Assembly (NCBI GenBank): GCA_022848865.1 | Contig: JAJISE010000014.1 | Coordinates: 1 to 42,641 of the forward strand | DNA length: 42,641 nucleotides | Reading direction: 5' to 3' | DNA from: Candidatus Thermoplasmatota archaeon | GTDB lineage: Archaea; Thermoplasmatota; Thermoplasmata; RBG-16-68-12; JAGMCJ01 | Part shown: positions 2,695-33,669 of the stretch, one piece after another | How the letters are laid out: each line of letters begins with the position of its first letter | Position numbering within the stretch: position 1 is the stretch's first letter | Notes under the pieces: generated by a model | Seen by the model: the letters and a program-made list of their open reading frames with translations, nothing else | The model's database searches: none | What the model was told of the DNA's origin: nothing | Translations under genes and position numbers: made by a program

Positions 2695-3080
2695 TCGACT
2701 ACTTCCAGATTGATGGGCTCCCCGTACAGATCAAAGGCCCGCCAGGAATCCTTGTTGAAAGGGACGCCAGTTATTATATGGATGTACCCGAACCTCTGGA
2801 AGAAAGCTATGTCCGCTCCGGAGGGGCTTATGCTTCCTGATGGATGGGAGTGCGCCGTCCCGACAACCGTGAAATCAATGGGGAGCATGTGCAACTGGAA
2901 TATGGCCGACCTCGAGCCAGATATGGTTCCGGGGAGCAGCATGATCTCCGTGACGACTCCCTCCTCCGCCCTGAGGATGGCCCCGAACTCGTTTGGATGG
3001 ACATCCCTCGAAGCCTCAAGAATCATCTCAATGGTCTCTCTCTTGATCGCCCTAGCCCTCTTCCTTTTGAGCGGCATCAC
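2691..3080 (-). CDS. JAMM/MPN+ metalloprotease (desampylase-like)
   Basis: A 129-residue single-domain JAMM protein with a complete zinc site: Glu31, then His77-Ser-His79, Ser87 and Asp90 in the pattern HSHx7SxxD. Archaeal stand-alone JAMM enzymes (Haloferax JAMM1) remove ubiquitin-like SAMP modifiers from lysines or process the modifiers, which is the likely role here. Sulfur-transfer functions exist in bacterial relatives and cannot be excluded. It is the last gene of an operon with NAD kinase and an IMPase-family phosphatase; its ATG overlaps the NAD kinase stop (ATGA). Two adjacent ATG codons could serve as start. No ubiquitin-like or E1-like gene is visible in the window. Confidence 0.85.
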   Translation of the reverse strand: MMPLKRKRARAIKRETIEMILEASRDVHPNEFGAILRAEEGVVTEIMLLPGTISGSRSAIFQLHMLPIDFTVVGTAHSHPSGSISPSGADIAFFQRFGYIHIITGVPFNKDSWRAFDLYGEPINLEVVD

Positions 3081-3883
3081 TGCACCATCAGCTTCTCTCT
3101 GATTCTTTCGTAGAAGTCCTCGTGGAAGCGTACGAACCTGGCCTTGTTCTCCGATACCCCAATCCTGACCTCCTCATCACCGTTCAGGTCGAACTCCACT
3201 TGACCATCGAGGACCAGCTTGCACGGTTTGGGCTCGGGGATGCGCAGCGAGACCTCGCTCTGAGCGGGGACTATTAGCGGTCTGACGGAGAGTTTGAACG
3301 GGGCGATGGGAACCACGACGATCGCCTCGACCCTCGGGTCAATGATGGGTCCACCAGCGCTCATTGCGTAGCAGGTGGAACCTGTGGGGGTGGCGATAAT
3401 GACCGCGTCCGCCCTGATGTTCTCGGCGGGCTGTCCATCGATTTCTATCGAAAAGGTCCGCATCTTCGCAATGTGCGCCGTGTTCAGAACCGCTTCGTTC
3501 GTGCAGTCCGGAACGCGTTCTCCATTGACCTGGGTCTTCAGCTTCAACCTCTCGTCGATCTCGTAGTCCCCATTGACTATCTTGTCAAGCCCCTTCTCGA
3601 TTTCATCCACACGAACCTCTGTCAGGAATCCCAGGACACCGGCGTTGATGCCGAATATCGGAGAGGAATTCCTCTGAAGCGTGGAGAGAATGGTCCCGTC
3701 CCCGCCGATTGCGACCACGACATCCGCATCTATCTCCTCCAAGGGAGAACCTTCCCGCCCGATCTTCTTCGCCAGACCCACGTCCAACAGTACATCGTGC
3801 TCCGGCTCTAGATAATCCAGGACGCGTTTCGACAAAGCGATTCTCCGCTCGATCTCAGGATTGCATGAAACACCAAACCTCAT
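3077..3883 (-). CDS. nadK: NAD kinase
   Basis: A 268-residue ATP/polyP-NAD kinase that makes NADP from NAD in the cytoplasm. The diagnostic GGDGT loop is at residues 60-64 (VVVAIGGDGTIL). A Thr-Asn-Glu segment (CTNEAVL) and the nucleotide-binding TPTGSTCYAMSAGGPI segment follow. Length is normal for the family. The ATG overlaps the stop of the upstream IMPase-family gene by four bases, and its own stop overlaps the start of the JAMM gene. In Methanocaldococcus jannaschii the NAD kinase is fused to an IMPase-type NADP phosphatase (MJ0917). Here the same two domains are separate but coupled genes. Confidence 0.95.
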   Translation of the reverse strand: MRFGVSCNPEIERRIALSKRVLDYLEPEHDVLLDVGLAKKIGREGSPLEEIDADVVVAIGGDGTILSTLQRNSSPIFGINAGVLGFLTEVRVDEIEKGLDKIVNGDYEIDERLKLKTQVNGERVPDCTNEAVLNTAHIAKMRTFSIEIDGQPAENIRADAVIIATPTGSTCYAMSAGGPIIDPRVEAIVVVPIAPFKLSVRPLIVPAQSEVSLRIPEPKPCKLVLDGQVEFDLNGDEEVRIGVSENKARFVRFHEDFYERIREKLMVQ

Positions 3884-11185: not shown

Positions 11186-13411
11186 ATGCCAGAAAAGGTA
11201 ATGCTGAAGGTTGCTGAGGCCCCCCAATCGGACGTTGGATTGGGAAGGGCGAGGGTCGACACTCAAATAAGAGCGGCCCTCGGCATAGACGTCGGAGAGA
11301 TTGTGGAGATCGTTGGAAAGAAGAGGACAGCGGCCAAGCTCTTCCGCGTGATGCAGGAGGACGAAGGCAAGGGCATAGTCCGCATTGACGGACTGGTGCG
11401 GAAGAACGCCGGTATATCGATCGGCGACAGGGTGGAGGTTACCAAGGCGGAGGTCAAGCCCGCCGAGCGGGTGATGATCGCGCCCATAATATCCGAAGGT
11501 CACAGAATCAGCTTTGGTGAGGGAATAGAGAGCTTCGTCAAGAGGGGACTTATCAAGCGGCCCGTTACGAAGGGCGACGTCGTCATCGTCCCTGGCATTG
11601 CCCTGATGGGCGGTGCCCTTCCTTTCATGGTCGTCAAGGGCGTCCCCCGCGGTATCGTCCAGATCAGTGACGACACGTCCGTCGAAATCAAGGAGGAGCC
11701 CGTGAGCGAAGCGGATATGGTCGCCCCCACCGTCAATTACGATGACATAGGCGGGCTCGGGGAGGAGCTCCTGAGGGTCAGGGAGATGATCGAGCTCCCG
11801 CTGAAGCACGCCGAGCTCTTCGAGAGGCTCGGGATCGACCCGCCAAAAGGGGTCCTTCTCTACGGGCCACCCGGAACGGGAAAGACGATGATCGCGAAAG
11901 CCGTGGCCAACGAGGCCGGCGCCTACTTCTCCTCGATTCAGGGTCCGGAGATAATGTCGAAGTACTACGGTCAGAGCGAGGAGAGGCTGAGAGAGAAGTT
12001 CGAGGAAGCGGAGAAGAACGCGCCCTCGGTCCTTTTCATCGACGAGCTCGACTCGATCGCACCGAAGCGGGAAGAGGTCACGGGCGAGGTCGAGAGGAGA
12101 GTCGTCGCTCAGTTGCTCACGCTGATGGACGGTCTGAGCGGTAGAGGGAACGTCATAGTCATTGGAGCCACGAACAGAGAGGAAGCAATCGACCCAGCGC
12201 TGAGGAGACCCGGCAGGTTCGACAGAGAGATCGAGATCGGTGTCCCGGACAGAGAGGGCAGGAAGGAGATCCTGCTGATCCACACTCGAGGCATGCCAAT
12301 AGAGGGCTCGGACGAGGAAAGAGATGAGATCCTCACGGGACTGGCGGACATCACCTATGGGTTCGTTGGAGCCGACCTTGCGGCCCTAGCGAGAGAGGCG
12401 GCGATGAAGGCTCTTCGCAGATATCTCCCTGAGATCGACCTGGAGAAGCCCATCCCTTCCGAGATTCTGGAGAAGATGAGGGTCATGAAGGAGGATTTCA
12501 AGGAAGCGCTCAAGGAAGTGGAACCCAGCGCCATGAGAGAAGTGCTCGTTGAGATCCCCAGGGTCTCTTGGGATGACGTCGGCGGTCTGGTCGACGTCAA
12601 GAAGGTCCTCAAGGAGACGATAGAGCTCCCGCTCAAGGACCCCGAGGCGTTCAAGCGGATGGGGATAACCCCGCCTCGCGGCATCCTTCTGTACGGACCG
12701 CCTGGCTGTGGCAAGACCCTACTAGCGAAGGCCGTCGCAAACGAATCCAAGGCCAACTTCATATCGATCAAGGGCCCCGAGGTCATGTCGAAATGGGTGG
12801 GAGAGAGCGAGAAGGCGGTCAGGCAGATATTCAAGAAGGCGAAGCAGGTCGCTCCCGCGATCGTCTTCCTCGACGAGATCGATGCGATTGCCCCGCGGAG
12901 AGGATCCTCCACGGGAGATTCCGGCGTAACGGAGAGGCTCGTCAATCAGCTACTCACGTCGATAGACGGTCTGGAGTCTCTCGAGGGCGTTGTCATCGTC
13001 GCGGCAACGAACAGACCTGACATAGTGGACCCGGCACTGCTTCGGGCGGGGAGGTTCGGAAAGCTCGTGCTCATCCCTGTCCCGGACAGAGACGCGCGGC
13101 TCGAGATATTCAATGTCCACACGCGGGAAATGCCGTTGAAGGATGTGAATCTGGAGGAACTGGCCGATCGAACGGAGAGCTTCTCAGGGGCAGACATCGA
13201 GTCCCTGTGCCAAGAGGCGGGATTGAGTACTCTGAGGAAAGACCCGGACGCATCGGAAGTGACGATGGAGGAGTTCGAGGAGGCCCTGATGCACGTGCAC
13301 CCTTCGATCGACAAGGAGACCATGGAATTCTACAAGATGATAGGAGAGGTCATCGAAAAGGGGACCATTACGAAGAAGGAAAGGCAGGACGCTCAGTCCA
13401 TGTTCCGCTAG
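11186..13411 (+). CDS. cdc48: Cdc48/VAT-type AAA+ ATPase
   Basis: A 741-residue archaeal Cdc48/p97 homologue, full length. Residues 1-190 are the double-psi-barrel N domain that binds substrates or adaptors. Two AAA modules follow, with Walker A GPPGTGKT (227-234) and GPPGCGKT (504-511), Walker B acidic boxes (FIDELD, FLDEID) and arginine-finger segments ([20 protein letters not shown]). The hexamer unfolds proteins for the proteasome or for remodelling. The C-terminus ends in SMFR, with no HbYX motif of the kind used by proteasome-activating ATPases to dock on the 20S core. It has its own TATA box and appears leaderless. Confidence 0.97.
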
Positions 13412-13493: not shown

Positions 13494-13733
13494 ATGAAGA
13501 GATTTGCAACAGAGCTGAGGGGAAAGACCGTTATGACGAACGATGGCCAGATCCTCGGCATGATAGAGAATTTTATTGTCGATACAAAGACGGGGAAGTT
13601 GCACGATGTTCTCGTGATTCCAGCTGAGGAGATTGAGACCCGCCTCTTCAAGACGGATCCGCAGGGGAGAATCATACTGCCCTTTACCGGCATGAAGGCT
13701 ATCAAAGACGTCGTCGTGATGGACGTCGAGTAG
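13494..13733 (+). CDS. PRC-barrel domain protein
   Basis: A 79-residue stand-alone PRC-barrel, a small six-stranded beta-barrel found in RNA-processing and photosynthetic proteins. The segment ELRGKTVMTNDGQILGMIENFIVDT is the typical opening (strand, turn, G-x-I/V-G), and KTGKLHDVLVIPAEE follows. Short archaeal PRC-barrel proteins are common near translation and cell-division genes; their role is unsettled. It stands alone with its own promoter and a perfect ribosome-binding site, which suggests high expression. Its stop is directly next to the end of the convergent 50-residue gene. Confidence 0.85.
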   Translation: MKRFATELRGKTVMTNDGQILGMIENFIVDTKTGKLHDVLVIPAEEIETRLFKTDPQGRIILPFTGMKAIKDVVVMDVE

Positions 13734-13886
13734 CTATCCTGGCCGCCCGAGGAACGCTTCCACTACTTCTTTTCTATCTTCAACCTGAACTCTCAGTATC
13801 GCCTCTATCGTCGCGGCGACTGACCAGCTCTCGATGATCAGTTCCGGTGATTTCTGGAAGGTCCATTCCACCGAGCCCACTCTCAT
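13734..13886 (-). CDS. Small 50-residue protein coupled to the flotillin gene
   Basis: A short frame with ATG at 13886-13884 and TAG at 13736-13734. The protein begins MRVGSVEWTFQKSPEL and has a likely amphipathic helix (VAATIEAILRVQVED). ATG starts one base after the flotillin TAG (TAGGATG), so translation is probably coupled by re-initiation. The composition is protein-like with charged and hydrophobic residues in register. It fills the only gap between the flotillin and the convergent PRC-barrel gene, directly abutting the latter. I do not recognise a family. It may be a partner of the flotillin/NfeD membrane complex. Confidence 0.55.
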   Translation of the reverse strand: MRVGSVEWTFQKSPELIIESWSVAATIEAILRVQVEDRKEVVEAFLGRPG

Positions 13887-13887
13887 C

Positions 13888-15357
13888 CTATTTCAGCGTC
13901 TCCTTGACTTTCGTGGTAAGGTCAGAGATGTCCATTCCGGTCAGTGCCTTTATGAGCACAGGCGCCTGAGCGGCTATGTCGACGACGCTGCCAACGAGAT
14001 CCGAAGGGCCTCTGCTGCCCATGATTATGATCTTCTCAGTGTTCTCGAGAGGTCTAGCCGCCTCAGCGACGATCTCAGGCAGCTTCTCCACTATCAGCTC
14101 CGTGACGGCAGCTCGCCCGTACTGTTCCCAAGCCTGAGCCTTCTTGGCCATCGCCTCCGCCTCGGCGAGTCCCTTTGCGCGTATGGCATATGCCTCGGCC
14201 TCACCCTTTAGCCTGATTATGTCTGCCTCGGCCGTTCCTTCCTGGCGGATCTTCTCTGCCTGTCCGAGCGCGACCTTGGAGAGTCGCTCCTTCTCGCCCT
14301 CCGCGATGAGTATGAGCTTCTGCTTCTCACCCTCGGATGTGATTATCGCCCTCCTCTTCTCGCCGTCTGCCTCTGCTGCCACTGCATCTGCACGAGCCCT
14401 TGCGGGAACCACTTGCTCCGCGGTCTGCTCCTGCTCCCTTCTCCGGACCTCCTGCATCATGACCTCGACCTGCTTCTCCTTGTCCTTGATGTCGACTATC
14501 CTCTCCTCCACGACGAGCTCCTGCCTCCTGGTGGCGTCCTGTATCGAGAACGATATCTCTCTGTTGGCTCTCTCCCTTTCAACCTCCGCCTCCGCCTTCT
14601 GGCGGGTGATATCCCTGTCCCTGTGGTAGATCGCAACCTTGGCTTCCGCACCGGCATTCGCCTGCTCACCTTCCATCGCTGCTTTGGCTTCCTGGATGGT
14701 CGCCTCCCTGTTCGCATTGGCCTTGCCTACGCGCGCATCTCTCTTGACCTCTTCCGTCTTCTTCACACCTAGCGCGTCAAGGTAGCCGTGCTCATCCTCG
14801 AGATCCCTGATTACAAAGGAGCGGATGTCGATTCCCATGTTCTTCAGATCCGCGGCAGCCATGGTCTGAATCTGGCTCGATATCGCGTCTCTGTCACTGT
14901 TGATTAGTTCCACAGTGAGAGTCGCACAGACACCTCTGACGTGTCCCTCGAGAGTCTTCATGGCTATCTCGTTGATCTCCGAGTCTGACTTGTGCAGAAG
15001 ATGCTCAGCGGCTGTATCCATGGTTGCCGGATCGCTCGAAACCTTGACCTGCGCAACCGTCTTGATGTTGACCTTTGCGCCGCTCCGCGCAACGTCTGTC
15101 ACAATGTCGTTCACGTTGACATCGAGGGTTCGGACATCGAGCGGAAGGAACTCATAGGACTCAATGATGGGCACTATGAATTTCGCCCCGCCTGAAATCA
15201 CCTGGTATCCCTTCTTGCCAATCTGCTTCCTCCCATACACGACCATGGCCCTGTCTGGCGGGACCTTCTTGTATCTCCAAGAATAGAGAAGGATGGGTGC
15301 GAAGACCCCCGCTAGTATGGCCAGTACCGCTATCAGCAATATTACTTCTTCTTCCAT
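13888..15357 (-). CDS. floA: Flotillin-like SPFH-domain membrane protein
   Basis: A 489-residue flotillin. Residues about 5-27 are one N-terminal membrane helix, followed by the SPFH/band-7 domain (about 35-215; VPPDRAMVVYGRK opening). A long Glu/Ala-rich coiled coil with many EA and EAEA segments (about 215-420) and a short C-terminal region follow. In Bacillus, YuaG/FloT-type flotillins form membrane scaffold assemblies and are paired with the NfeD protein YuaF. The same pairing occurs here: NfeD lies 20 bases upstream. The symbol is by analogy. The stop is one base before the 50-residue gene. Confidence 0.9.
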   Translation of the reverse strand: MEEEVILLIAVLAILAGVFAPILLYSWRYKKVPPDRAMVVYGRKQIGKKGYQVISGGAKFIVPIIESYEFLPLDVRTLDVNVNDIVTDVARSGAKVNIKTVAQVKVSSDPATMDTAAEHLLHKSDSEINEIAMKTLEGHVRGVCATLTVELINSDRDAISSQIQTMAAADLKNMGIDIRSFVIRDLEDEHGYLDALGVKKTEEVKRDARVGKANANREATIQEAKAAMEGEQANAGAEAKVAIYHRDRDITRQKAEAEVERERANREISFSIQDATRRQELVVEERIVDIKDKEKQVEVMMQEVRRREQEQTAEQVVPARARADAVAAEADGEKRRAIITSEGEKQKLILIAEGEKERLSKVALGQAEKIRQEGTAEADIIRLKGEAEAYAIRAKGLAEAEAMAKKAQAWEQYGRAAVTELIVEKLPEIVAEAARPLENTEKIIIMGSRGPSDLVGSVVDIAAQAPVLIKALTGMDISDLTTKVKETLK

Positions 15358-15377
15358 CTACAAACCTCCCCGTTTCA

Positions 15378-15956
15378 TCATCTCTTGACTCTTACGCTGT
15401 GACCCACCACCGCCTCGATTGTCACTGCGGCGTCCGTGGGAATGGCCTCATCGGCAATGGCGGGCAATAGTGTTCGGCCTCTCTCGGCTGTCACCACAAC
15501 GACCTGACCAGTTCTTCCGGGTTTGATCGCCACCGAGACAATCCCCTTCTCTCCCACAAGGTCCTTTGGATGCACGACGGTCGTTGTCTGAGTCTTCACG
15601 AATACCCTCACGACGACCACGTACATGATGCCCGCCGTCATCACGCTCACCATCATTGCTATGAACGGGATGATGAAGGAGTCCCAACCCTGCTGCTCGA
15701 GCACCGCGCCGACGCCTCCGAATGTCGTTCCGAAGGCGAGCACGATCGGAAGGCTCAGCGGACTGATACCCGCTCCCGTGAAGTCGCCGTGCCCCACATC
15801 CCCCTCGAACCCTCCAAGGTCAAGGTCAGGGCCTTCGACATCGAAGTCCCCGCCAGCATCGAAGTCTCCTCCCGTGAACCCGCCCATTGCCACAGTTACG
15901 ATTAGCAGGATCGCGCATATTATTGCAATCAACAGATAGATGCTTATGCCGTCCAC
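15378..15956 (-). CDS. NfeD-family membrane protein (YuaF-like)
   Basis: A 192-residue NfeD protein. It has an N-terminal helix (about 5-25), an Asp/Gly/Phe-rich loop (about 26-60; GGDFDAGGDFDV and PDLDLGG), two more helices (about 64-86 and 92-118) and a C-terminal OB-fold domain (about 130-192; DLVGEKGIVSVAIKPGRTGQV). NfeD proteins partner with SPFH proteins, and the flotillin gene follows at once. The acidic repetitive loop is unusual; its D-x-D and D-F pattern resembles the octapeptide repeats of the zinc-ribbon protein encoded upstream. The loop's role is unknown. Confidence 0.85.
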   Translation of the reverse strand: MDGISIYLLIAIICAILLIVTVAMGGFTGGDFDAGGDFDVEGPDLDLGGFEGDVGHGDFTGAGISPLSLPIVLAFGTTFGGVGAVLEQQGWDSFIIPFIAMMVSVMTAGIMYVVVVRVFVKTQTTTVVHPKDLVGEKGIVSVAIKPGRTGQVVVVTAERGRTLLPAIADEAIPTDAAVTIEAVVGHSVRVKR

Positions 15957-15968
15957 GAAACCACCTCA

Positions 15969-16498
15969 TTACTCCAGAAAGTCCTCCAGTCTCTTACCCG
16001 TCTCCTTCCAATCGGTCGTAATTCTCTTCTGTGCCTCTTTCTTTGGAAGCCTCAAAGCCTCATACTCGTGATCCTCTGACGCCCCTTGCTCCTCGGTGCG
16101 GTCCATTCCCCCCGAGCCTTCGGGGAGTCTCAATCCACAATGGCTGCAGTAGGTGTCGGAACCCGTGATCGGATATCCGCAGTAGTGACAGAACCTCCGC
16201 CTGACCTTCGCCTTCTTCTTGGGCTTCTTGGTCGCCTTCTTCTTCGGTTCCGTCTCAAAGACGGCGTCACATTCGTCACATTCCGTGGCCATAGGATTGA
16301 CCAACGCTCCGCAGGATGAGCAGACATAGCCGCGGAAAATGATTCCTCTCTTCCCGAAACCGAGATCTCTGTTGAGGTCGAAGCCCAGATCCCTGTCAAG
16401 GTCGAAATGCAGGTCCCTGTCAAGATCGAAATGAAGATCTCTATCGTAGTCGAAATGTAGATTGCGGTCCAGATCGAAATTGAGCAGCTTCGTGTCAT
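15969..16498 (-). CDS. Double zinc-ribbon protein with N-terminal DLDRDLHF repeats; start disrupted
   Basis: In one continuous frame the protein has five octapeptides of type DLDRDLHF (16475-16356). Then comes a zinc ribbon CSSCGALVNPMATECDEC, a very basic linker (KKKATKKPKKKAKVRRR), a second ribbon CHYCGYPITGSDTYCSHCG and an acidic C-terminus. No ATG, GTG or TTG opens this frame upstream of the repeats. The only good start, ATG at 16498 after a GGGGGG run, is one base out of frame: an extra G (ATG GAC ACG) would restore it. So there is a real or assembly frameshift at the start, or a non-standard start. The later TTG at 16304 would cut the first zinc ribbon in half. It heads the NfeD-flotillin operon; function unknown. 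Confidence 0.6.
16356..16475 (-). repeat. Five tandem 24-bp repeats encoding DLDRDLHF
   Basis: Five head-to-tail 24-base units on the minus strand encode DLDRNLHF, DYDRDLHF, DLDRDLHF, DLDRDLGF and DLNRDLGF. Third-position changes outnumber amino-acid changes, which points to selection on the protein and supports this reading frame. The pattern alternates acidic, hydrophobic and aromatic residues. Confidence 0.85.
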
Positions 16499-16579
16499 CC
16501 CCCCTAACTGGATGCGATTTTTCAAATGAGCTACAGGAATATAAGCGTTGCGGGGAGTTCAGATGACACTCTCTGACAT

Positions 16580-23170: not shown

Positions 23171-25465
23171 CTAGTGCTCCCTTCTTCTGTACGCCATGAC
23201 CAGCAGAGCCACGAGGGTCACCGAGACCATTGCCAGTATGCCGACATCGGGGATGGACTCGATCTTCTCGATCTGTGGGGGCTCCACACCGCCCCAGCTT
23301 CTCACAACAACGTCGTTGGACCCAGTTCCTGCGTCGTATCCGTCCTTCATCGCGGTCACCATGACCTTGAAGAGGGTATCGGTAGTCACGTTCCCTGTGA
23401 AGGAAGCGGTGAATTCCCCTGGGCTTCCGGCCACTGGTGTTGGATCTCCTAGTGTCGCGCCCGCGTGATCCACGGAGACGTACACATCGCTGGCATGCAC
23501 ATCAACAGGAATCATGTCCTGGTCCGTGATGGCCATCGTTATCAAGGTCGAACCGCCGGACTCGAGTACTGGGGCCTGCCTGCCCACAACGACGATGAGC
23601 TTGGAGACGGCTGGATGCACGGTTATCTTCGTGCTCGCCGTCGCTCCCTTGTACGTAGCGAGGAACGTCGTCGCTGTTATCCCTATGTCTGTCACATCGG
23701 ACACTCCCGGAGCAGTGTACGTGGTCTGGAACTCACCTAGTGAATCCGTCGTCCCTGTTCCGGACAGGAAGGTGCCGCCGGCGTCAGCGGAGAGTTCGAC
23801 ATTTATTCCCAGGACAGCTGCAAAGCCTTGGTCAAGAACCCGCACAGTCACTGTAACATTGCTGCCTGATTCTACGGAAGGCTGCGATGTGGACACGGAG
23901 ACTGAGAGAGAACCGGTCTGAACCTTGTGGATGTTGATACCGGACCAGAAGTTGAATATCCCTCCAACCATCTCCACAACGCCGTCCCATCTCTCTCTGT
24001 TGTATGCCTCGATGGCATCATACGAGGTGATTGGAGCGAACGGAACCAACTCTGAGATTAGTCCGAGGGTTTGGTGGACGTACATCTGTCTGGTTGCCAT
24101 GTCCAATTCGTCGTCTGCCGCATCGAGTGCCGTCATTATCTCCGGGTGCAATACATCGTACCCGGCGAGCATGGGAATGTCCCTTATGGCCGCCGGTTCC
24201 AAGGGGAGCTTATCCACATCGACGTAGATATCAAACCCGGAGGGATTCGTGGCAGTTGTGTTCAGCGTAATGTTGAGTCCCAAGCTGCTCAGCAACCCCT
24301 CGTAGTTATAGCCGATGTCGAATCTCCTTATGTCAACTGATTGGGAGGGTCCAAGCATGGTCATTTGGAGCGCGCTGCCATCTGGCCTCTCCCTCAGTCC
24401 ATCGCCATCTCTGTCTATGTAGTTCAGCTGTGCAAGCTCGGCAAGTGCTGGCATCGGGTTGCTTGCCTGTCTCCCGGTCGAGTCGAAATAGAATCCTGCA
24501 TTGTACTCCACTATTGATTGATTGTACCAGGGCTCATTGAAGGGACTCATCGGCGACTGGACTATCCTCGTGTTTGGCTCCATCAAATTGTATAGTTCCT
24601 TGTTTATGGCCATGACCAATGCTCTTCTGAGGTCGGGAGATGTCAGCTCGTCGATCGGATTGTATGCAGCATAGAGATATTCGAGGCCGCGACTGTAGGA
24701 AACGGCGAGGTGTGGCTCTATGATTATGGAGGTTGGTGTGCCGCTCACATTGTATACGTCTGTCGGATCATTGATACCGAGGGTCCATCCAATGAAATCT
24801 ATATCACCGTTTATCAGTGCTGATGCCGCCACACTTATGTTCTGATACACATCGAATGTCATAGTGTCGAGGTAGGGCCGTCCATCGAAGTATCCATCGT
24901 AGGCACCAATCGTAACGCTGTCCGCGGCGGCGCTGATCAACTCGAACGGACCACATCCCTCATCTGGAGTGGTTTCGTCGAGCTTGACAAGCGGCCTCTG
25001 GAGACCCTCCGTCATGAACTTCCCTCCGCCTCCACCAGAGAAGTCAAAGGAGACTTCTGTAGCAGAGACTACGTCCACGATATAGCCACCATAGAAGGTC
25101 TCATAGGTGTATTTGACATCGTCTGCCTCAACCGCAGAGTCGTCATCGTGCCAGAGGACATCGGTTCTTAGGACAATGTCTACTGTCTGATCTCCCGTGT
25201 CTACTGACCAGCTGTCCGCAACCCAGGGCACAACCAGGAGCGTGACCGGGTCGAGACGTCCCAGAGAATCATAGAGAAGGCCTATCACGTGCAGACTGGC
25301 CTCATCCGATGCTGTATTCGGATTCAGGTCCAGAGTCGTGTCCTTCACGGCGACTCGGAAGTCTCCTCCATACATTCCGGAGAGTTCTTCTGGAGTTGCG
25401 GCAAAGGCAGAGGCAGCGAAGCTGAAGACGAAGAGCATCGCCACTACACATGCGAGTGCTCTCAC
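23171..25465 (-). CDS. Membrane-anchored oligopeptide-binding protein (SBP_bac_5 family) with Ig-like domains
   Basis: A 764-residue extracellular protein. Residues 1-22 are a signal peptide (ACVVAMLFVFSFAASAFA). Residues about 35-520 look like a family-5 peptide/nickel-binding protein: GLLYDSLGRLDPVTLLVVPWVADSW, then DVLWHDDDSAVEADDVKYTYE and a late PFAPITSYDAIEAYNRERWDG. Two invasin-like Ig domains follow (about 525-620 and 630-720; VSADAGGTFLSGTGTTDS-like segments). A membrane helix (about 735-757) and a basic end (YRRREH) complete it. It should capture peptides at the cell surface. No ABC permease or ATPase is adjacent, so transport must use proteins encoded elsewhere. Its ATG overlaps the stop of the giant protease (ATGA), tying the two functions together. 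Confidence 0.88.
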   Translation of the reverse strand: MRALACVVAMLFVFSFAASAFAATPEELSGMYGGDFRVAVKDTTLDLNPNTASDEASLHVIGLLYDSLGRLDPVTLLVVPWVADSWSVDTGDQTVDIVLRTDVLWHDDDSAVEADDVKYTYETFYGGYIVDVVSATEVSFDFSGGGGGKFMTEGLQRPLVKLDETTPDEGCGPFELISAAADSVTIGAYDGYFDGRPYLDTMTFDVYQNISVAASALINGDIDFIGWTLGINDPTDVYNVSGTPTSIIIEPHLAVSYSRGLEYLYAAYNPIDELTSPDLRRALVMAINKELYNLMEPNTRIVQSPMSPFNEPWYNQSIVEYNAGFYFDSTGRQASNPMPALAELAQLNYIDRDGDGLRERPDGSALQMTMLGPSQSVDIRRFDIGYNYEGLLSSLGLNITLNTTATNPSGFDIYVDVDKLPLEPAAIRDIPMLAGYDVLHPEIMTALDAADDELDMATRQMYVHQTLGLISELVPFAPITSYDAIEAYNRERWDGVVEMVGGIFNFWSGINIHKVQTGSLSVSVSTSQPSVESGSNVTVTVRVLDQGFAAVLGINVELSADAGGTFLSGTGTTDSLGEFQTTYTAPGVSDVTDIGITATTFLATYKGATASTKITVHPAVSKLIVVVGRQAPVLESGGSTLITMAITDQDMIPVDVHASDVYVSVDHAGATLGDPTPVAGSPGEFTASFTGNVTTDTLFKVMVTAMKDGYDAGTGSNDVVVRSWGGVEPPQIEKIESIPDVGILAMVSVTLVALLVMAYRRREH

Positions 25466-28400
25466 GGCTCACCCTCCTTTGGGAACGTTGTCTCCTCAGG
25501 CGGCTCTTCAGGAGGACCTTCCTCAGGAGAAACCTCCTCTGCGGGAGGCTCTTCCTCCGGCATCTCAATCTCCTCCAGAGGCTCTTCCTCCAGCATCTCT
25601 TCTTCCTCCGGCATTTCCTCTACAGCCTCCTCTTCCTCGGGCGGGATCTCCTCCTCGAAGACCTCTTCCTCAATCGTGGGCCTTCTTCCTATCATGAGCC
25701 CGATGAGGAGGCCAACTATCAGGAGCACAACGGCAAGAGCCATGAGTATCACCGTCGTCCACGTCTGCTTGGTGACCTCGAACTCTGGAGACCATGTGAC
25801 GGACAAAGCCCGCGTGGCAGTGTTTCCCGCCTCGTCCTTTGCTATGACTGTAATCTCGTTTGTTCCGTAGCTCAGTGTGACTTCTTTGCTGAAGGCTCCT
25901 TGCGACGGTATTACTGGGAGACCGTTCACTGTCACGATTTCCACGTCGCTTGATACCGTTCCTGTGACGTTTATTATCGAGACTAAGGCCTCTCCCGTCA
26001 GTGGGTCAATGTTCTCCGCAAGGATGGAAGCTGTCAGGGTTGGGGCGACTGTGTCTTTGGTTATGACGGTGTCGTTGCTGGTGAACGTGTGTCCTGCAGC
26101 ATCGTGGGCCTCTATTACAATGGTGTTCACGCCCTCTTCCAGTGGGATGGTTGTTTCGAAGGTTCCGTCCTCGTTCACGGGAACCTCCTTCCCAGCAATA
26201 GTCAACTCGACAATCTCACTGAACTTCCCAGTGACAGTTAGAGTCTGTGCGTTTGTTGGCTTGCCTAGCGGTTCGGACGTAATCACCGGGTACTCCAGAT
26301 CGGGCGGAATAGTGTCCACTGTGATAAGCCTCGTCACAGTAGCGGTGTTGCCAACAGAGTCCACGGCAACGACAGTGAGCCAATTGGCCCCTTCTCCCAG
26401 CTGGTCGAACATGTATGAGAAGGTCCCGTCCGAGGCCACCGGTACATCCTCGCCGCGGATTGCCACGGTCGCCCCGGATTCGGCTGTTCCAGTTATCATT
26501 ACAGAATCTGTGGTTATGGTTGTGTCCGTGGACGGATAATCGATCTGAAGCAGCGGTATGGTCGTGTCAACGTAGAACTGCCAAGTGAATTCTTCCAGAT
26601 TGCCAGCGGAGTCTCCAACCTGTGTCATGACGGTATGCATTCCGTCGGCAAGAGGTGCGGTCGGAATGTAGCTGACTGTCCCAGTCGCATAGCCGCCGAG
26701 ATCAGAATCGAAGGTCACTGAGACCACCGACATGGACGTTATGTCGACGCCATCCAACCACAGGCTTATCGACGTCGAGTCCATCGTCCCGATGCTGTCA
26801 GAGAAGCCTGCCAGTATCGCAGGCGTGCTATCTGACATCACTGAACCATCCGCTGGAAGCGTTTGCAGAACCTCCGGAGGAGTAATATCGTAAATCAAAG
26901 TGACGGGTACGAGAAGGGTCAACGAGACGGGAGCGTTTCCTGGAGAGGCGAAGAATGCTGCCTTAATCGTCCCTTCTGTAGTGGTATCCTCCGGGAGGTC
27001 CCATGTAAGATTGAGAACCTCACTGGAATAGGCTGGGACGACGTCCGCTGTGTATGTGACACCGAACGGGGACGGTCCAACACTGAGCTCCGTGACTGTC
27101 ATATCCGCAAGGGCACCAGCTCTCCAGACGTCGAAGCCCGCCATCGTGATGATGTATCTGCCGGGTGCTGGAAGGACCAGAACGACAGTCTCGTCCGCGT
27201 CTGCATCCGCGTCGTACTTAACGAACTCATCCGCCTGGGCCTGATCATCACCGTTCGCGTCCAGGAACACACCGAGGTCCATATCCGGGCAGCAGTCAGC
27301 GTGCCCCTGCAGGTGGAACTCGATCGTTATGACCGATGCGTCGACATCCCAAAGCATGGTGTTCAATGACCTGGCAAGGTACTCAACAAAGCTCTCGTCA
27401 CCCACAGTTTCACCATCAAGCTCGATGGGGATGTCTAGGAACTCACTGACTTCTGAGCCAGCAACGGTAACGCCCACAGGCTTTCCATAGAACTCGTTGA
27501 AGGGATCTGGATTGGGTAGCCACGGTATGGTCGTCGACAAGACGGTTTCATAGGAACCTTCCAGCTGGTTCGTGGAGAAGTCGAGCGGATATGGCGTCAT
27601 ACTGAGAAGACCCGTCTCCCCGGACATAACATCAGCAGCTTCCTCGCCCTCGACAGTGGTTGTCTCCACGATTAGGACGTTTAGACCGGGACCAGCGCTG
27701 AGAGCCTTGAACAGTCCGTTTCCGGCTCCTGTCCAATCGGGCGTCTTCTTGAAGTATCCCGGGGCCCCGACATCTGTCTCGGCCAGCACAAACGGACCGT
27801 ATCTGCTTTCGTTCAGTTGGGAGAAGACGTAGTCACCAAGGCCGGGAGAACCTTCCTCACGTTCCTGACCGAGATGACGCATGTCGGCGTAGGTGTTGTC
27901 GCCATCACTGTCTATGTCGACTATGAACTTCATGCCCTCTTTGAACACGAAGGTGTCAGGAACGTCGAAGAAGTAGTACCTCAGGTCATAGGCGCCCCCG
28001 TAGCCTCTGAGAGCATTGTTATCATATAGCGTATCCGAAGTGGTGCTTCCACCGAACTGGAAGTTCGTGGAACCCTCATGAGCTACATTTATCACGATCG
28101 GGATTGTCGTGATATCGGCCCCGTTGGTCAAATGGATTGCACCTTCGTAGAGTCCCACGTCCGCACTAGGTGGCACCGTCGCAGTTGCAACGAAGTCGAA
28201 CGTGCCTCCTGCTGGTATACTGATTGTCGCTCCGAGAGGCGTGACCCCATTGTCCTCAAAGAGACTGACCATGGGCCAGGGTTGCTTCTCGAAGAACTCG
28301 ATCGTAACAGTAACGGGTCCCGGAACTGGGTCACCAGAGAGATGCCTCCACCATATGATTAGACCATCATGAGTTCTTGTGGCAGGATCATGGATTCTGA

Positions 28401-31400
28401 CCTCGAAAGAGTTCTCACCCAGGAAGATTCCCATCCTGTTTCTCTCGAACCATGCTCCGGTCACTCCGTAGGGCAGACCCGGGTCAACCAGCATTGCGCC
28501 AGAAGCCTTCCACCACAGGTCTATCTCGCCTCCGTAGCTCACAGCCCAGAACCACTCATATCCGGACGAGAAGCCTATGTCCGAGAAGCCGTCGAAGTCG
28601 TATGTGGGAATGACCTCTGCCGTAATTGTGCCGCCCATAATATCCCATATTGCGACACCGGTCGCGTTGGCGACGGCCAGATTCATGGCGACACCATCGA
28701 AGTCCACGTACGTCGGATTCTCTTGTACGAGAGCGACGGCTGGCGGAACATAGTCGTACTGAATGGTAACGTTGGCCCACATCGGAAGGGGGCCAAGATA
28801 AAACATCAGACCGTCAGTCGTGTACAGAATGTAGTCGCCCATACCGCTCCCAAGGTCAAGCTCGTACACCGGTGTACCGTCCACCCAGACCTGGTACGAG
28901 AAGGGAACGATGCTCGTGTTTCCGAGCGTGAATACCGGGGCGCCTGTGAAGTTGAACGTGTCGTAGCCTGTTGATGGCACCAGAGTCATGTCCCAGACAT
29001 TCACTGTCCCAGTGCCGGCTCCACTCAAGGCCGATCCCATTCCTACTGACGCAAGCCACATGCTGTCAGAGCTGAACTTGAGGTCCATCACACCGTCCAG
29101 GTCGCCCGACAGGTCCTCGTCCTCGTGACCGCTGAATCCGCCAACTTGGGTCCCTGTGATCGGGTCCCAGAGCATTACGTAGTTGTCCCAAACGCCAAAG
29201 TAACCACCGCCACCGGTGGCTATCACAGACCCATCTGGACTCCAGGCAAGGGTGTTCACGATGTCAAGGTGTCCACACGCCCCTCCGAGTAGGTTTCCCG
29301 AGATGTCCATGATCATGACATCCGCGAGGAAATCGGGGTCGCAGTAGTCCCTCGGAAGACCATTCAGCCACCTAAGGGCGGAGTTGACGCTCGAAGTGAA
29401 CGCTATCTGACTCTCATTGGCTGGGTTGAACTCCACTCCGGTGATAGTATAGCCGAATAGGAAATCATCCGACCGGACAAGCCGGGCGCGGGTGGCCACA
29501 TCCCACACGGCCACCAAGCCATCTCCACCAAAGGGCAACGGGCCAGCCGAGGCCGCCAACTTGCTACAATCAGAAGTGAAGTCGATGTCGTTGATCATAC
29601 TGCCTCCCAATCCTGCCAGGTCGTCAATCGGGTATCCTGTCGTGTTGTCCCACAGAATGATTACGCCATCCTCCGCACCAGTTGCGAACATCGTGCCGTC
29701 AGAGCAGAAGTCCATCGCGGTTATGTTGGCGGAGTGCCCAAAGAACCGCCCATTCATATTGACATCTGTCCAGTCGTGCGGTTCTACGTATATCTGCTGG
29801 TTCGTCAGTAGGTCCATGTCGAAGTGGGCGGTAATCCTGAGAAGGTCGGCATTGTTCCATCTCGTCACATCCATGCCCGGTCCGAACTTCCTTCCGAAGA
29901 AGTCATAGAATCCCGTCTCGTTGATGATTGTCCAGTTGTTGCCCACAGGCTCCGGCGGGGCCTCAACGGTGGGCTGGACTGTATACTCGATGGTGGCCAT
30001 TCTCTTTAGGTAGTCAGCGGACACACCAACGTTGTTCAGGGGTGTTGACCCGCGATTCTCCACCGTCATCATCTCAGAATCAGATTCACCAGCCGTGAGG
30101 AAGTGGACGAAGTCAACATAGTCCTGGCCCCTGTAGTCACCCGGGTACCAGACCTCTGGATTGGCAAGAATGCCTCCACTGTTGGAAGCCAGATTGGTGG
30201 CACGCAGGGCGTTTCCGTAGCCAGATCCCTGTGTGAAAACGTCGTAGTTCATGTCGTCAGCACTCGATAGGAGTATCCTCTGCGCTTCGAAGGCATCCAT
30301 GTAATGCCCGTATGTCTGCTCATATGCGTCCTGCATGAGGGCAATCACTGCTGTTGCGTGAGGGGCTGCCATGCTCGTACCTGCGTCAATATTCCATGCC
30401 GCTGTCCCATCCATGAACTCGTTTATCGGATAGGCATCGTACGCCCACGCTCCATTAAAGCAGATGTCGGGTCCCAATTGACCAGTAGCCGCCGGTCCCC
30501 AAGAGGAGAGATAGGCTACGCCGCCGTACGCAGGATTCGGCCCTCCATCGTAGAGGTGCTCTGGTTGCACTCTGTAGAAGAGGTCCCATGCTGCGCACGT
30601 GCTTATGGTTCCCGGGGCGACTGAGTTCCCGGTTGTTCCGTATCCGCCGCCTTCGTTTCCAGCAGACTTCACGTGAATCGTCTTGCCCTCCGAGTATTGA
30701 GTTGTGACCCAGTCTCCGAACCTCTCACCGACCGTCCATCCACTTTCCAGCGGGTTCGAGCCGAAACTCCAGCTTATCACAAGACCCTCATCACCAGTTC
30801 CAGGGACTCCATCATATCCCTCTATGGCGAAGAGGAACCCGTGGTACTGAGTGAACGAACCGTGAGAAACTCCGCCTGGTATCGAAATGACCTTCGCATC
30901 AGGAGCCAGCCCCATCAACTTAGGTGTACCGCCGATGGGGGTGACACCCTGACCCACGATACTTGTGGCGACAGCCGTTCCATGCGAGCCGTAGGTTGCA
31001 CCAGTGAAGGCAACCATATCGCCAGCGCCCCAGTAGTAGTTATCCACTCCCAGGCGTCCCGCCAGGATATCCGAGTAGGGTATTGGTACAACACCATACG
31101 AATAGTCAACGGTGAGTTCGTCGCCGGCTTGGAGATCGTTCGTGAACGTGAAGTTGCCCGTGACTACGTCCAGAATCCACGGGTAGTAGGTGTAGTCCGC
31201 TCTGATCTCTGCACCTGTCTTGAGCTGATAGGTCAACGTGATCTCGCCGGTTTCATAATCGACAGTGTAACCAGAGGTGTCCATGACACCAGTGTAGTTG
31301 TACCATGTATAGAACTCATCCTCAGCCATGTTGACCTCGAGAGGATTGGGGTTGTTTGTCAACTTCGATGTGAAAGTCACCTGTCCTGTAGCCAGATTCG

Positions 31401-33669
31401 CGCTGTAATCATCGGGCGTAGCCAGAGTGGTCCAGACAGGTCCAAACCAAACATCAGAAGCCCTCTTTCTGAGTATGGTGAGATCCAGCAGGTTGTCATT
31501 GGCGACCTCGAAGCCCGTGTCAGCCGCGGGGTCGGAGACCGTGAAGGAGAGTTCATCTGTGACATTTATGTCTGTGCCAGTCAGGGTCTCACTCTCCTCA
31601 ACGACTTTCGCGTTTTTCAAGGAAACGACATCCTCAAGCCCTTCCGCAACAATCACCACCTCGCTGACCACATCAACTGTGTTCCAGGAAAGTGTGTTTT
31701 TCAAGACATTCACAACGTCGCTCACCGTCACGTCTCCGTTTGCCAACTGTCCCCAGGTCTCACCACCAATCGCGGTGGTTCCTGTTATCATGGTCTCGTT
31801 TCCCACGACGAGTTGTTCACCAAGAACAGCTGTCGAATCGCTGATGAAATAGAGGAGACCGCCCGAAATGTCCGCGTAGCCATCCGAATCCAGATCCTTC
31901 CATAGGTTCGGACTGCCCTTCGTCGCGGACATGTCGTCTGTGAAATCGAGGTTATTGTCCAGGTCCACATAGACGGTGTCGTAGACCCCTGGAGAGGTCG
32001 AATCTACTACGATGAGCGCAGGAGCCATGAAATAGGCGGCACTCAGCCAGGAGTCCCAGTGCAGACCCGCATGATACACACCGCTTGCACTCGAAATCCC
32101 TGTTACATCGTAGTCAGTATCCTGCATTACAATGCTGATGAACTCGATGTAGATGTCCGCGTCCGTCGGATTCGAAGTTGTATATCCGAGAATCGCCAGT
32201 ATGTAGTCGTTCTCCGTGTTCGGATTGAATATCGGCGCGAATACTTCAGGATTGTCTCCGGTGCTCGTATCTTCATAAGCGACCAGTTCAGATAGGTCTA
32301 TGTCATCATCTCCGTTCGCATCATAGAACAGCCCCAAGTCCAAATCATCACCGGGTGTGAATTCGACCCAGATGTTCATCTGGACCGTTCCCACAGGAAC
32401 CGCGAATGGAAATCTATATGCAGCTGTCAGGAACGCGCCGGGGAACCCAGGACTCAGATCATCATCGAATACCGGTTCGCCAAAAGTGTAGAAAGGAACC
32501 ATTAGCGGTGCATCCCTGTTGTACGTGATGTAGGTCCCGCTCGCGTTCGTGAAGCTCGCAAGCTCAGTTGAGGTGTCCACAAACATCCCTGAAAGCTCTC
32601 CTTCGTTGGAGAGATAGGCGTCTATCGCCGGTGGCTCGAATGTAATAGGCCATCCGGCATAGGGTGAGCTGTACGTGTAGGTTGCAGTTACCACATCGTT
32701 GAGAACCAAGGCCGTCGTGAAGGTTATCACGCCGGTCGCGGGATCGAAGGTGTAGTCCGCCGGCGGCATGAAGACGCCGTTCAGGTAGAAGGAATAACCA
32801 GTGACGTCCATGTGCACGAGGGTGGCAGTGGTCTCGCCACCGACAGCCTCAATGACCGTTATGTTCTCGATTGTGGTGCTGGCAGGTTGGACGGCCCAAG
32901 TCCCATCGAGGTCAGAATGTCCAAAGTCAATTCCTTGGTCAAGGACTGCAACAACCTCTCCAGCTCCCGTGAATCCATTTGCCCAGGCAAGGTCTGCCAT
33001 GTGAGTCACAACGGAATTCCAATCATTCGGCGTTGGGGGGTCTTCTCCCATTGGCTGAGGGCCTCCAGAGCCCATAGGGCCAGACGGAGAATCAATGAAT
33101 ACTGGGTCCAGCTTTATGCCCTTCTCCTTCGCCGCTCGTTCTATCATCTCGTTCTGGTCCCCACGTAGAAGGTTGAGCGGGACTTCTCCTCCCACTACTT
33201 CCTCTGGGACATCCATCACGTCAGGTGTGAAGACCTCCTGCTTTCCTATCAATAGAACCTCATCAATTGCGGCCAGCTCAGCAAGAGCGTTGGCGGGAAC
33301 CTCAAGTACGATCGGTGTGGGTACCGACTTGATGGTTGCTTTCTCACCGACCAACCCCCGATACTCATACTTCTCGAGAGCTCTGGCCACTGCGGAAACG
33401 TCTGAGACTATGAGAACAACTTCAACCATCTCTTTGTGTCCGCTCTTTGCCAGATCCCGAAGGGCAGGATCGATCTTCTCTAATCCCAGAACCTCGCTGG
33501 ACTGAGGAAGCGAAGGCTCCTCCATTGGAAGGAACTCTTCACCCTGTTCAACTGGCTCCTCGTATCCCTCACCGCCCGAAGACGAGACAGGTGAAGGGGC
33601 GACGAAAAGCGATAGGGCAAACAACCCTACAACAACCCCACTAATCCACCTAACACTTTTTTTGGACAT
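25462..33669 (-). CDS. Giant membrane-anchored subtilisin-like serine protease with WD40 and Ig-like domains
   Basis: A 2735-residue protein. It has a signal peptide (about 1-30), an inhibitor-like prodomain (about 60-150) and an S8 protease core with Asp244 (VAVLDQGIDFGH), His896 (GSHGTAVA), Asn1005 (SAGNEGG) and Ser1099 (GTSMAAPHA). About 650 residues lie between Asp and His. They carry repeated beta units such as YTFDPATGVITFT and YTVDYETGEITLT, and Ca-type segments (DANGDDDIDLSEL). Residues about 1310-1725 hold at least six WD-type blades (ILWDNTTG, VMLWDPITG, VNVWDM). A second DANGDD unit is near 2130, three Ig-like domains span about 2370-2625, one membrane helix about 2636-2662, and a Glu/Pro-rich tail of about 70 residues ends it. 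It probably digests proteins outside the cell. GGAGG lies seven bases before the ATG. Confidence 0.9.
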   Translation of the reverse strand: MSKKSVRWISGVVVGLFALSLFVAPSPVSSSGGEGYEEPVEQGEEFLPMEEPSLPQSSEVLGLEKIDPALRDLAKSGHKEMVEVVLIVSDVSAVARALEKYEYRGLVGEKATIKSVPTPIVLEVPANALAELAAIDEVLLIGKQEVFTPDVMDVPEEVVGGEVPLNLLRGDQNEMIERAAKEKGIKLDPVFIDSPSGPMGSGGPQPMGEDPPTPNDWNSVVTHMADLAWANGFTGAGEVVAVLDQGIDFGHSDLDGTWAVQPASTTIENITVIEAVGGETTATLVHMDVTGYSFYLNGVFMPPADYTFDPATGVITFTTALVLNDVVTATYTYSSPYAGWPITFEPPAIDAYLSNEGELSGMFVDTSTELASFTNASGTYITYNRDAPLMVPFYTFGEPVFDDDLSPGFPGAFLTAAYRFPFAVPVGTVQMNIWVEFTPGDDLDLGLFYDANGDDDIDLSELVAYEDTSTGDNPEVFAPIFNPNTENDYILAILGYTTSNPTDADIYIEFISIVMQDTDYDVTGISSASGVYHAGLHWDSWLSAAYFMAPALIVVDSTSPGVYDTVYVDLDNNLDFTDDMSATKGSPNLWKDLDSDGYADISGGLLYFISDSTAVLGEQLVVGNETMITGTTAIGGETWGQLANGDVTVSDVVNVLKNTLSWNTVDVVSEVVIVAEGLEDVVSLKNAKVVEESETLTGTDINVTDELSFTVSDPAADTGFEVANDNLLDLTILRKRASDVWFGPVWTTLATPDDYSANLATGQVTFTSKLTNNPNPLEVNMAEDEFYTWYNYTGVMDTSGYTVDYETGEITLTYQLKTGAEIRADYTYYPWILDVVTGNFTFTNDLQAGDELTVDYSYGVVPIPYSDILAGRLGVDNYYWGAGDMVAFTGATYGSHGTAVATSIVGQGVTPIGGTPKLMGLAPDAKVISIPGGVSHGSFTQYHGFLFAIEGYDGVPGTGDEGLVISWSFGSNPLESGWTVGERFGDWVTTQYSEGKTIHVKSAGNEGGGYGTTGNSVAPGTISTCAAWDLFYRVQPEHLYDGGPNPAYGGVAYLSSWGPAATGQLGPDICFNGAWAYDAYPINEFMDGTAAWNIDAGTSMAAPHATAVIALMQDAYEQTYGHYMDAFEAQRILLSSADDMNYDVFTQGSGYGNALRATNLASNSGGILANPEVWYPGDYRGQDYVDFVHFLTAGESDSEMMTVENRGSTPLNNVGVSADYLKRMATIEYTVQPTVEAPPEPVGNNWTIINETGFYDFFGRKFGPGMDVTRWNNADLLRITAHFDMDLLTNQQIYVEPHDWTDVNMNGRFFGHSANITAMDFCSDGTMFATGAEDGVIILWDNTTGYPIDDLAGLGGSMINDIDFTSDCSKLAASAGPLPFGGDGLVAVWDVATRARLVRSDDFLFGYTITGVEFNPANESQIAFTSSVNSALRWLNGLPRDYCDPDFLADVMIMDISGNLLGGACGHLDIVNTLAWSPDGSVIATGGGGYFGVWDNYVMLWDPITGTQVGGFSGHEDEDLSGDLDGVMDLKFSSDSMWLASVGMGSALSGAGTGTVNVWDMTLVPSTGYDTFNFTGAPVFTLGNTSIVPFSYQVWVDGTPVYELDLGSGMGDYILYTTDGLMFYLGPLPMWANVTIQYDYVPPAVALVQENPTYVDFDGVAMNLAVANATGVAIWDIMGGTITAEVIPTYDFDGFSDIGFSSGYEWFWAVSYGGEIDLWWKASGAMLVDPGLPYGVTGAWFERNRMGIFLGENSFEVRIHDPATRTHDGLIIWWRHLSGDPVPGPVTVTIEFFEKQPWPMVSLFEDNGVTPLGATISIPAGGTFDFVATATVPPSADVGLYEGAIHLTNGADITTIPIVINVAHEGSTNFQFGGSTTSDTLYDNNALRGYGGAYDLRYYFFDVPDTFVFKEGMKFIVDIDSDGDNTYADMRHLGQEREEGSPGLGDYVFSQLNESRYGPFVLAETDVGAPGYFKKTPDWTGAGNGLFKALSAGPGLNVLIVETTTVEGEEAADVMSGETGLLSMTPYPLDFSTNQLEGSYETVLSTTIPWLPNPDPFNEFYGKPVGVTVAGSEVSEFLDIPIELDGETVGDESFVEYLARSLNTMLWDVDASVITIEFHLQGHADCCPDMDLGVFLDANGDDQAQADEFVKYDADADADETVVLVLPAPGRYIITMAGFDVWRAGALADMTVTELSVGPSPFGVTYTADVVPAYSSEVLNLTWDLPEDTTTEGTIKAAFFASPGNAPVSLTLLVPVTLIYDITPPEVLQTLPADGSVMSDSTPAILAGFSDSIGTMDSTSISLWLDGVDITSMSVVSVTFDSDLGGYATGTVSYIPTAPLADGMHTVMTQVGDSAGNLEEFTWQFYVDTTIPLLQIDYPSTDTTITTDSVMITGTAESGATVAIRGEDVPVASDGTFSYMFDQLGEGANWLTVVAVDSVGNTATVTRLITVDTIPPDLEYPVITSEPLGKPTNAQTLTVTGKFSEIVELTIAGKEVPVNEDGTFETTIPLEEGVNTIVIEAHDAAGHTFTSNDTVITKDTVAPTLTASILAENIDPLTGEALVSIINVTGTVSSDVEIVTVNGLPVIPSQGAFSKEVTLSYGTNEITVIAKDEAGNTATRALSVTWSPEFEVTKQTWTTVILMALAVVLLIVGLLIGLMIGRRPTIEEEVFEEEIPPEEEEAVEEMPEEEEMLEEEPLEEIEMPEEEPPAEEVSPEEGPPEEPPEETTFPKEGEP

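Follow-up and report, generated by a model that had tools for sequence, protein, structure and literature searches.

A putative flotillin-NfeD scaffold operon of Thermoplasmatota with an octad-repeat partner and an order-specific microprotein

This study examined a gene set on contig JAJISE010000014.1 (positions 1 to 42,641 of the forward strand, hereafter the window) from assembly GCA_022848865.1 of a Candidatus Thermoplasmatota archaeon, a genome of 2.03 Mb in 136 contigs (G000 below). Four minus-strand genes lie head to tail over about 2.75 kb: a gene for a protein of repeated octads and zinc ribbons (the octad gene), a gene for an NfeD-like membrane protein, a flotillin gene and a 50-residue open reading frame, p50 (Table 1). 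The intergenic gaps are 12, 20 and 1 nt in that order and the neighborhood is conserved in relatives, in agreement with an earlier reading made from the letters of the window without database searches (the sequence-only reading), which had taken the four genes for one operon; its proposal of two unusual partners likewise held for the repeat protein and the 50-residue protein. Combined, the comparisons of related loci slightly favor reading the locus as a flotillin-NfeD scaffold operon of Thermoplasmatota to which one nearly obligate and one order-specific component have been added, and the module very probably acts as a functional unit.

Conservation was assessed in three genome draws, comprising 80 relatives plus the window genome, 400 genomes from the class and 389 from the phylum, which overlap and are not independent by descent. 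A flotillin match at E<=1e-100 was found in 24 of the first 81 genomes and the zinc-ribbon gene in 23 of these 24; G002 carries only the second half of that gene on its contig, and in the 24th genome (G021) the contig ends inside the flotillin gene. The class draw contained the zinc-ribbon octad core in 24 genomes, all of them with flotillin, and three flotillin-only genomes, two of which are cut by contig ends while the third (G255) holds an SPFH protein of 32% identity. The core was likewise accompanied by flotillin in 7/7 genomes of the phylum draw. In total, 39 flotillin genomes were counted over the class and phylum draws, with G255 and G550 (SPFH proteins 32-33% identical) set aside; five of the 39 (G002, G021, G407, G408 and G435) were not counted for octads because a contig end cuts the place of the octad gene. 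The sequence-only reading had proposed a neighborhood survey in Thermoplasmatota, and this survey placed the octad gene just upstream of nfeD-flotillin in 33 of the 34 genomes whose contig shows the place (24 + 3 through the core profile and 6 through an octad-only profile), with neither a loss of the neighborhood nor a broken 50-residue frame. The order octad gene-NfeD-flotillin is maintained across families and across the phylum. A contig scan with a single window protein returned four same-genus loci, and no octad match was obtained in either of the two remote SPFH loci (L119 and L133).

The flanking genes bear on whether the locus might be no more than a common flotillin/NfeD pair whose neighbors hitch-hike neutrally. 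Divergently oriented glnA flanks the operon; of the two convergent genes listed in Table 1, the PRC-barrel gene is syntenic in 21/21 flotillin-bearing genomes of the order (window counted) and the CDC48 gene in most, and synteny held by all three within the order is what hitch-hiking would lead one to expect. However, the loci retrieved from other families and classes with this flotillin showed no glnA, PRC-barrel or CDC48 gene, whereas the octad gene stays; additionally, eight genomes of family f4 miss both flotillin and the octad gene. Hitch-hiking is therefore considered highly improbable. Elsewhere in the window, positions 25462-33669 hold a 2735-residue open reading frame that resembles, by eye, a large surface protein, with repeated domains and a part similar to subtilisin.

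An indication of which part of the octad protein is tied to the core comes from family f43, in which the gene before nfeD lacks a zinc ribbon and keeps two to three in-register, degenerate octads together with R-x-x-G-(V/I)-x-F-R. Within 5,849 frames, the octad profile picked the gene upstream of nfeD in 6/6 assessable f43 genomes (E 7.6e-6 to 0.0035), and these six genes rank right after the true members. Their products end in a TPR; four of the six were scanned, with TPR scores above the Pfam cut-off in three and below it in the fourth. In the flotillin tree (34 rows of sufficient length, with L118, L119, L132, L133 and split contigs excluded), the f43 rows lie on one side and the zinc-ribbon rows on the other. 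Because the octads stay in f43 while the zinc ribbons give way to TPR, we infer that it is the octads that are linked to flotillin/NfeD, with the C-terminal part an exchangeable payload. A conserved gene of about 230 aa precedes the octad-TPR gene in f43 (L124 149-832; L125 5197-5880; L127 5313-6011; L128 751-1464; and, as a fragment, L126 3268-3567).

These patterns suggest, as the likeliest reading and with about even chances, that the octad protein serves as a docking adaptor on a flotillin-NfeD platform. The octad tail would bind the oligomer of flotillin or NfeD in an extended, multivalent form, with each octad occupying one of a series of repeated sites; the tail is the candidate docking part because it persists through the exchange of the C-terminal domain and is predicted to be extended. 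The zinc ribbons or TPR would then recruit clients or signaling proteins to the flotillin platform in an adaptor-like manner. Zinc ribbons often bind nucleic acid, and the protein might instead be a DNA-, RNA- or ribosome-binding regulator of the operon or of membrane stress that stands outside the complex. Such a role has a parallel in the B. subtilis PspA operon, where an SPFH protein is likewise encoded and the YdjG protein is described as nucleic-acid binding (PMC9239133). The exchange of zinc ribbons for TPR with retention of the octads in f43 speaks against a regulator, as does a family scan of the octad protein in which no helix-turn-helix family was matched, and this alternative appears improbable.

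At the sequence level, the 22 zinc-ribbon-type proteins form a gapless alignment of 71 columns in the order L-L-N-F, five octads and F-G-K-R-G-V-V-F-R-G-Y-V-C-P-x-C-G-A, and the 24-bp tandem repeat in the window gene was confirmed. The octad count is exactly five in 27/27 zinc-ribbon-type relatives, followed by G-(V/I)-x-F-R-G and the zinc ribbons; the 27 are the 22 aligned sequences plus G115, G127, G415, G423 and G430, with one octad a residue short in G127. Conserved within the octads are F, R four residues on and, in most octads, L two further, and the G-x-x-F-R-G stretch is also invariant or nearly so. Seven of the eight zinc-ribbon cysteines are invariant over the 22 rows and the eighth (C74) nearly so, with all four of the second ribbon invariant in 22/22; Pfam DZR scored 24.2 bits on the window protein vs a cut-off of 27.3. 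The window repeats are D-rich, as the sequence-only reading had described them, but this enrichment is special to the genus: the aspartates are not conserved outside it, F, R and L are conserved instead, and the net charge of the octads is -6 to -9 in 4/22 sequences and -4 to +5 in 18/22. A likeness between DLDLGG and DLDRDLGF had also been offered as a hint that the repeats and the NfeD loop interact. The D-rich motifs were rejected as a mark of such an interaction, given that the D residues are not kept outside the genus and that in the window the repeats and the loop are both acidic.

The octad protein has no predicted membrane helix, and its ColabFold model contains no long helix and leaves the octads without secondary structure (predicted local distance difference test, pLDDT, about 73 at residues 21-40). 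A Foldseek search with the octad/zinc-ribbon model gave no PDB match at E<=0.001, a PDB sequence search with the octad profile returned only rubredoxin and ribosomal L40e zinc ribbons at E 0.024 or worse, and viral contigs scanned with the octad alignment gave no match.

The fixed octad count in all 27 zinc-ribbon types invites a different function, in which the octad protein is an assembly factor whose octads strap neighboring subunits of flotillin and either set the ring or brace it, with zinc ribbons or TPR being only structural. The wide end of human flotillin measures 32 nm over 44 subunits in the structural account of PMC11260169, and an extended octad of about 26 Angstrom (8 x 3.3) is close to the computed 22.8 Angstrom per human subunit. 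This length match is approximate, though, the human subunit count may not be the archaeal one, and the TPR family with only two or three octads in register indicates that the fixed count is not universal. An assembly factor is accordingly rated as rather unlikely, and so, to a similar degree, is the related notion of the octad array as a ruler or strap, in which each extended octad would reach from one subunit to the next, five octads would engage five neighboring subunits, and the site and number of zinc-ribbon or TPR adaptors on the ring would thereby be set.

Table 1. Coordinates of the flotillin-NfeD operon, its predicted features and its neighbors (window positions unless a locus is named).
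Feature	Position	Strand or orientation	Remarks
Octad/zinc-ribbon gene	15969..16487	-	First conserved residue (LLNF) to stop 15969-15971; start somewhere within ~16500-16487
Five octads NFDLDRNL HFDYDRDL HFDLDRDL HFDLDRDL GFDLNRDL	16362..16481	-	Pattern F-x-x-x-R-x-L-x
First zinc ribbon (CxxC...CxxC)	16269..16322	-	Preceded by GFGKRGIIFRG
Second zinc ribbon (CxxC...CxxC)	16137..16190	-	Zn_Ribbon_1 28.6 bits vs cut-off 25
NfeD/YuaF-like membrane protein, 192 aa	15378..15956	-	GTG start
Acidic D/G-rich, K/R-free loop between transmembrane helices TM1 and TM2	15765..15881	-	Predicted disordered
Predicted C-terminal OB fold of NfeD-like protein	15384..15548	-	
Flotillin, 489 aa	13888..15357	-	ATG start; Band_7 and Flot domains
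p50, 50-residue microprotein	13734..13886	-	ATG one base past flotillin stop
PRC-barrel gene	13494-13733	Convergent to operon	Stop abuts p50 stop
CDC48-type ATPase gene	11186-13411	Convergent to operon	
Inserted gene between flotillin and p50	L074 5961-6605; L078 5935-6579; L088 ~2911-3543	Minus strand (L088)	

The start of the octad gene is unusual in the genus of the window. The sequence-only reading had taken the module up to 16498, an ATG that as start of this gene proved to be shifted by one base relative to the zinc-ribbon frame, and the window frame has no ATG, GTG or TTG upstream of the TTG at 16304, which sits within the zinc ribbon. In 18 genomes outside the genus, an ATG or GTG directly precedes the octads. 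By comparison, the four same-genus genomes showing the start region (G000, G001, G003 and G004) share AGGGGGG(G)ATGACACG, whose ATG lies outside the reading frame (window 16485-16500); ahead of the octads, G000 and G001 lack any in-frame ATG, GTG or TTG, G003 offers an in-frame TTG about 13 codons from LLNF, and in G004 ATGs occur about 30 codons or farther upstream of LLNF. A start at TTG 16304 with non-coding repeats was rejected, as the octads align gaplessly with those of relatives whose ATG or GTG start directly precedes the repeats. The octads are coding, because their amino acids are conserved with other families and because dS (synonymous divergence) is 0.18-0.23 vs dN (nonsynonymous divergence) of 0.046-0.055 in three pairs with the window. 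Our guess is that the gene starts in this genus at an ACG 5 nt past the G run, or that an early frameshift is present, and gene finders would probably clip the octad repeats off.

The other added component, p50, was found by tblastn (E<=0.01) in 17 relatives and, with a profile, is present and intact in 21/21 flotillin-bearing genomes of the order. Its start one base past the flotillin stop was correctly called in the sequence-only reading and recurs in 5/5 same-genus genomes; outside the genus the distance ranges from a few to about 60 nt, and it reaches about 650 nt in G007, G021 and G031, where a gene is inserted whose product combines a zinc ribbon at its N-terminus with a membrane segment and an extra domain. 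Conserved residues are W8, P14, W21, A25 and A29, and dN is below dS in 10/10 within-genus pairs, clearly so in nine, as well as in both f4 pairs tested. The flotillins accompanied by p50 form one clade (support 99/98). A chance open reading frame was rejected on the strength of this conservation, by the intact frame in 21/21 genomes and by dN below dS, and on these comparisons p50 is a real gene that encodes a predicted order-specific microprotein. In the proposed scheme it would be produced along with flotillin through translational coupling and serve the complex as a small accessory subunit, probably an amphipathic-helix peptide with a tuning or capping role. The short length of p50, together with a hairpin (GGGACGCCG...CGGCGTCCC) between flotillin and p50 in L067 and L068 and the inserted gene at three other loci, would also suit a mere translated leader, spacer or degenerate frame; against this stand the five conserved residues, the dN/dS relation, the 21/21 intact frames and the fact that p50 stays near flotillin despite the inserted gene, which make such a role decidedly improbable. 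In family f56, a 74-residue protein that by eye is unrelated to p50 is encoded right past flotillin (L116 6858-7082; L130 1372-1596).

The core pair itself is of a familiar kind. The window flotillin matches PF01145 (Band_7) with 84.2 bits vs a cut-off of 23.6 and PF15975 (Flot) with 35.2 vs 27, and the flotillin profile finds the human flotillin-1/2 chains in the PDB at E 1e-68 to 1e-79. Because it scores 294.5 bits on the NCBIfam FloT model NF058507, under the cut-off of 700, it is regarded as a flotillin and not as a FloT equivalog. Within G003 (C408:2628-3200), a second flotillin-like fragment, 57% identical and with one in-frame stop, may represent a paralogue or a strain mixture.

PF01957 (NfeD) on the window protein stays below Pfam level (E 0.96, 10.1 bits vs a cut-off of 29.1) and a genome-level search of G000 for NfeD gave no match; across its homologues, PF01957 matches 10/23 at E<=0.1, the best at 7.4e-7. 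The predicted model of the window protein shows three helices and a C-terminal domain of five strands, with a disordered loop over residues 27-63. Its best Foldseek matches are 8z5g (QmcA-YbbJ), 2k5h, 3cp0, 2k14 and 3wwv (E 3e-4 to 8e-3) and include MTH693, a soluble NfeD-like domain (3cp0), YuaF (2K14) and PH1510-C. The top match, at E 3.2e-4, is the SPFH-NfeD complex QmcA-YbbJ, in which the SPFH protein is of the stomatin type and the NfeD protein is shorter. With its transmembrane helices, predicted C-terminal OB fold and SPFH neighbor, the window protein is NfeD-like and not a Pfam-level NfeD. The loop between TM1 and TM2 is D/G-rich and, as the sequence-only reading had stated, acidic, and it is not the peculiarity implied there. 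It is D-rich and K/R-free in 23/23 NfeD-like sequences, and because its length and sequence vary and an NfeD-like protein beside flotillin on a Persicobacter plasmid has a comparable acidic loop, it is an ordinary feature and no hallmark of this operon.

The flotillin-NfeD pair agrees with descriptions of bacterial systems, in which SPFH2 (flotillin) genes are reported to pair with a weak NfeD homologue (Hinderhofer 2009, PMC2636767). As in the accounts given of yuaF-yuaG(floT) and yqiJ-yqiK, a three-transmembrane NfeD/YuaF-like gene with an OB fold and weak NfeD conservation directly precedes flotillin; in the operon described here, an octad gene lies ahead of nfeD. The same two-gene core characterizes the abbreviated flotillin operons of a phage-shock-protein (PSP) survey, which describes flotillin + YqiJ/YuaF operons as widely distributed in bacteria and archaea (PMC11237479); the survey's passages on these operons name an AAA+ protein as the extra component and do not mention an octad or microprotein partner. 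The octad searches covered this phylum plus, on the bacterial side, eight plasmid flotillin loci selected out of 36 hits as well as E. coli K-12, and these contained no credible octad gene and no p50 homologue. The sole octad-profile match in the plasmid loci (L140, E 0.0022) is an unrelated frame about 1.5 kb past flotillin and was judged to be chance, and E. coli YqiJ did not match the NfeD-like profile. The claim that bacterial flotillin operons lack such partners thus holds for these loci, which are its sole scope.

Zinc ribbons have been linked to SPFH proteins before. The B. subtilis pspA-ydjGHI operon, as described in PMC9239133 and PMC11237479, combines a zinc-ribbon protein (YdjG) and an SPFH protein (YdjI) at the membrane; the window operon differs in that it has no PspA, its octad protein has no predicted membrane helix, and flotillin and NfeD take the place of YdjI. 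Its neighbors are glnA, nfeD, flotillin, p50 and the PRC-barrel and CDC48 genes, and it does not belong to the PspA-ydjGHI type. An archaeal SPFH-zinc ribbon link is also provided by the methanogen ESCRT (endosomal sorting complex required for transport; Meth_adaptin) locus, where an SPFH protein with a coiled coil and a zinc ribbon is described (PMC10936438), although the ribbon there is part of the SPFH polypeptide itself, within an ESCRT locus. Flotillin genes are reported to be widespread in Ca. Poseidoniales, another group of Thermoplasmatota (PMC6461757). Literature searches of open-licence PMC papers retrieved no octad partner or microprotein of flotillin.

Several observations weigh against the proposed adaptor and accessory subunit. 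Genome G422 has flotillin and NfeD with no octad match, its upstream protein carrying a weak C-terminal zinc ribbon. The ColabFold octad/zinc-ribbon model is weak (mean pLDDT 61; predicted template modeling score, pTM, 0.22), and the octad dN/dS of about 0.2-0.3 applies only to the three window pairs, the other three pairs lying near or above 0.8 with too few changes. For p50, 18 of the 21 profile-matched sequences had built the profile, leaving three independent ones, and the amphipathic-helix idea comes from a by-eye reading of the sequence. Additionally, p50 was not found in octad-bearing families outside the order, and a weak p50 match (E 0.0084) occurs in G422, the genome without detected octads.

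With the flotillin-NfeD scaffold core already known, what appears to be new is an adaptor-like octad partner and an order-specific microprotein. The octad partner bears on what prokaryotic flotillin cages hold and on how partners are recruited to them, and as a genetically linked partner built on a simple repeated peptide it makes the F, R and L of each octad directly testable. If the ruler or strap notion were true, it would represent a new way to read out an SPFH ring with a swappable payload. Overall, the system offers an archaeal handle on membrane microdomains together with a new family of flotillin-tied microproteins.

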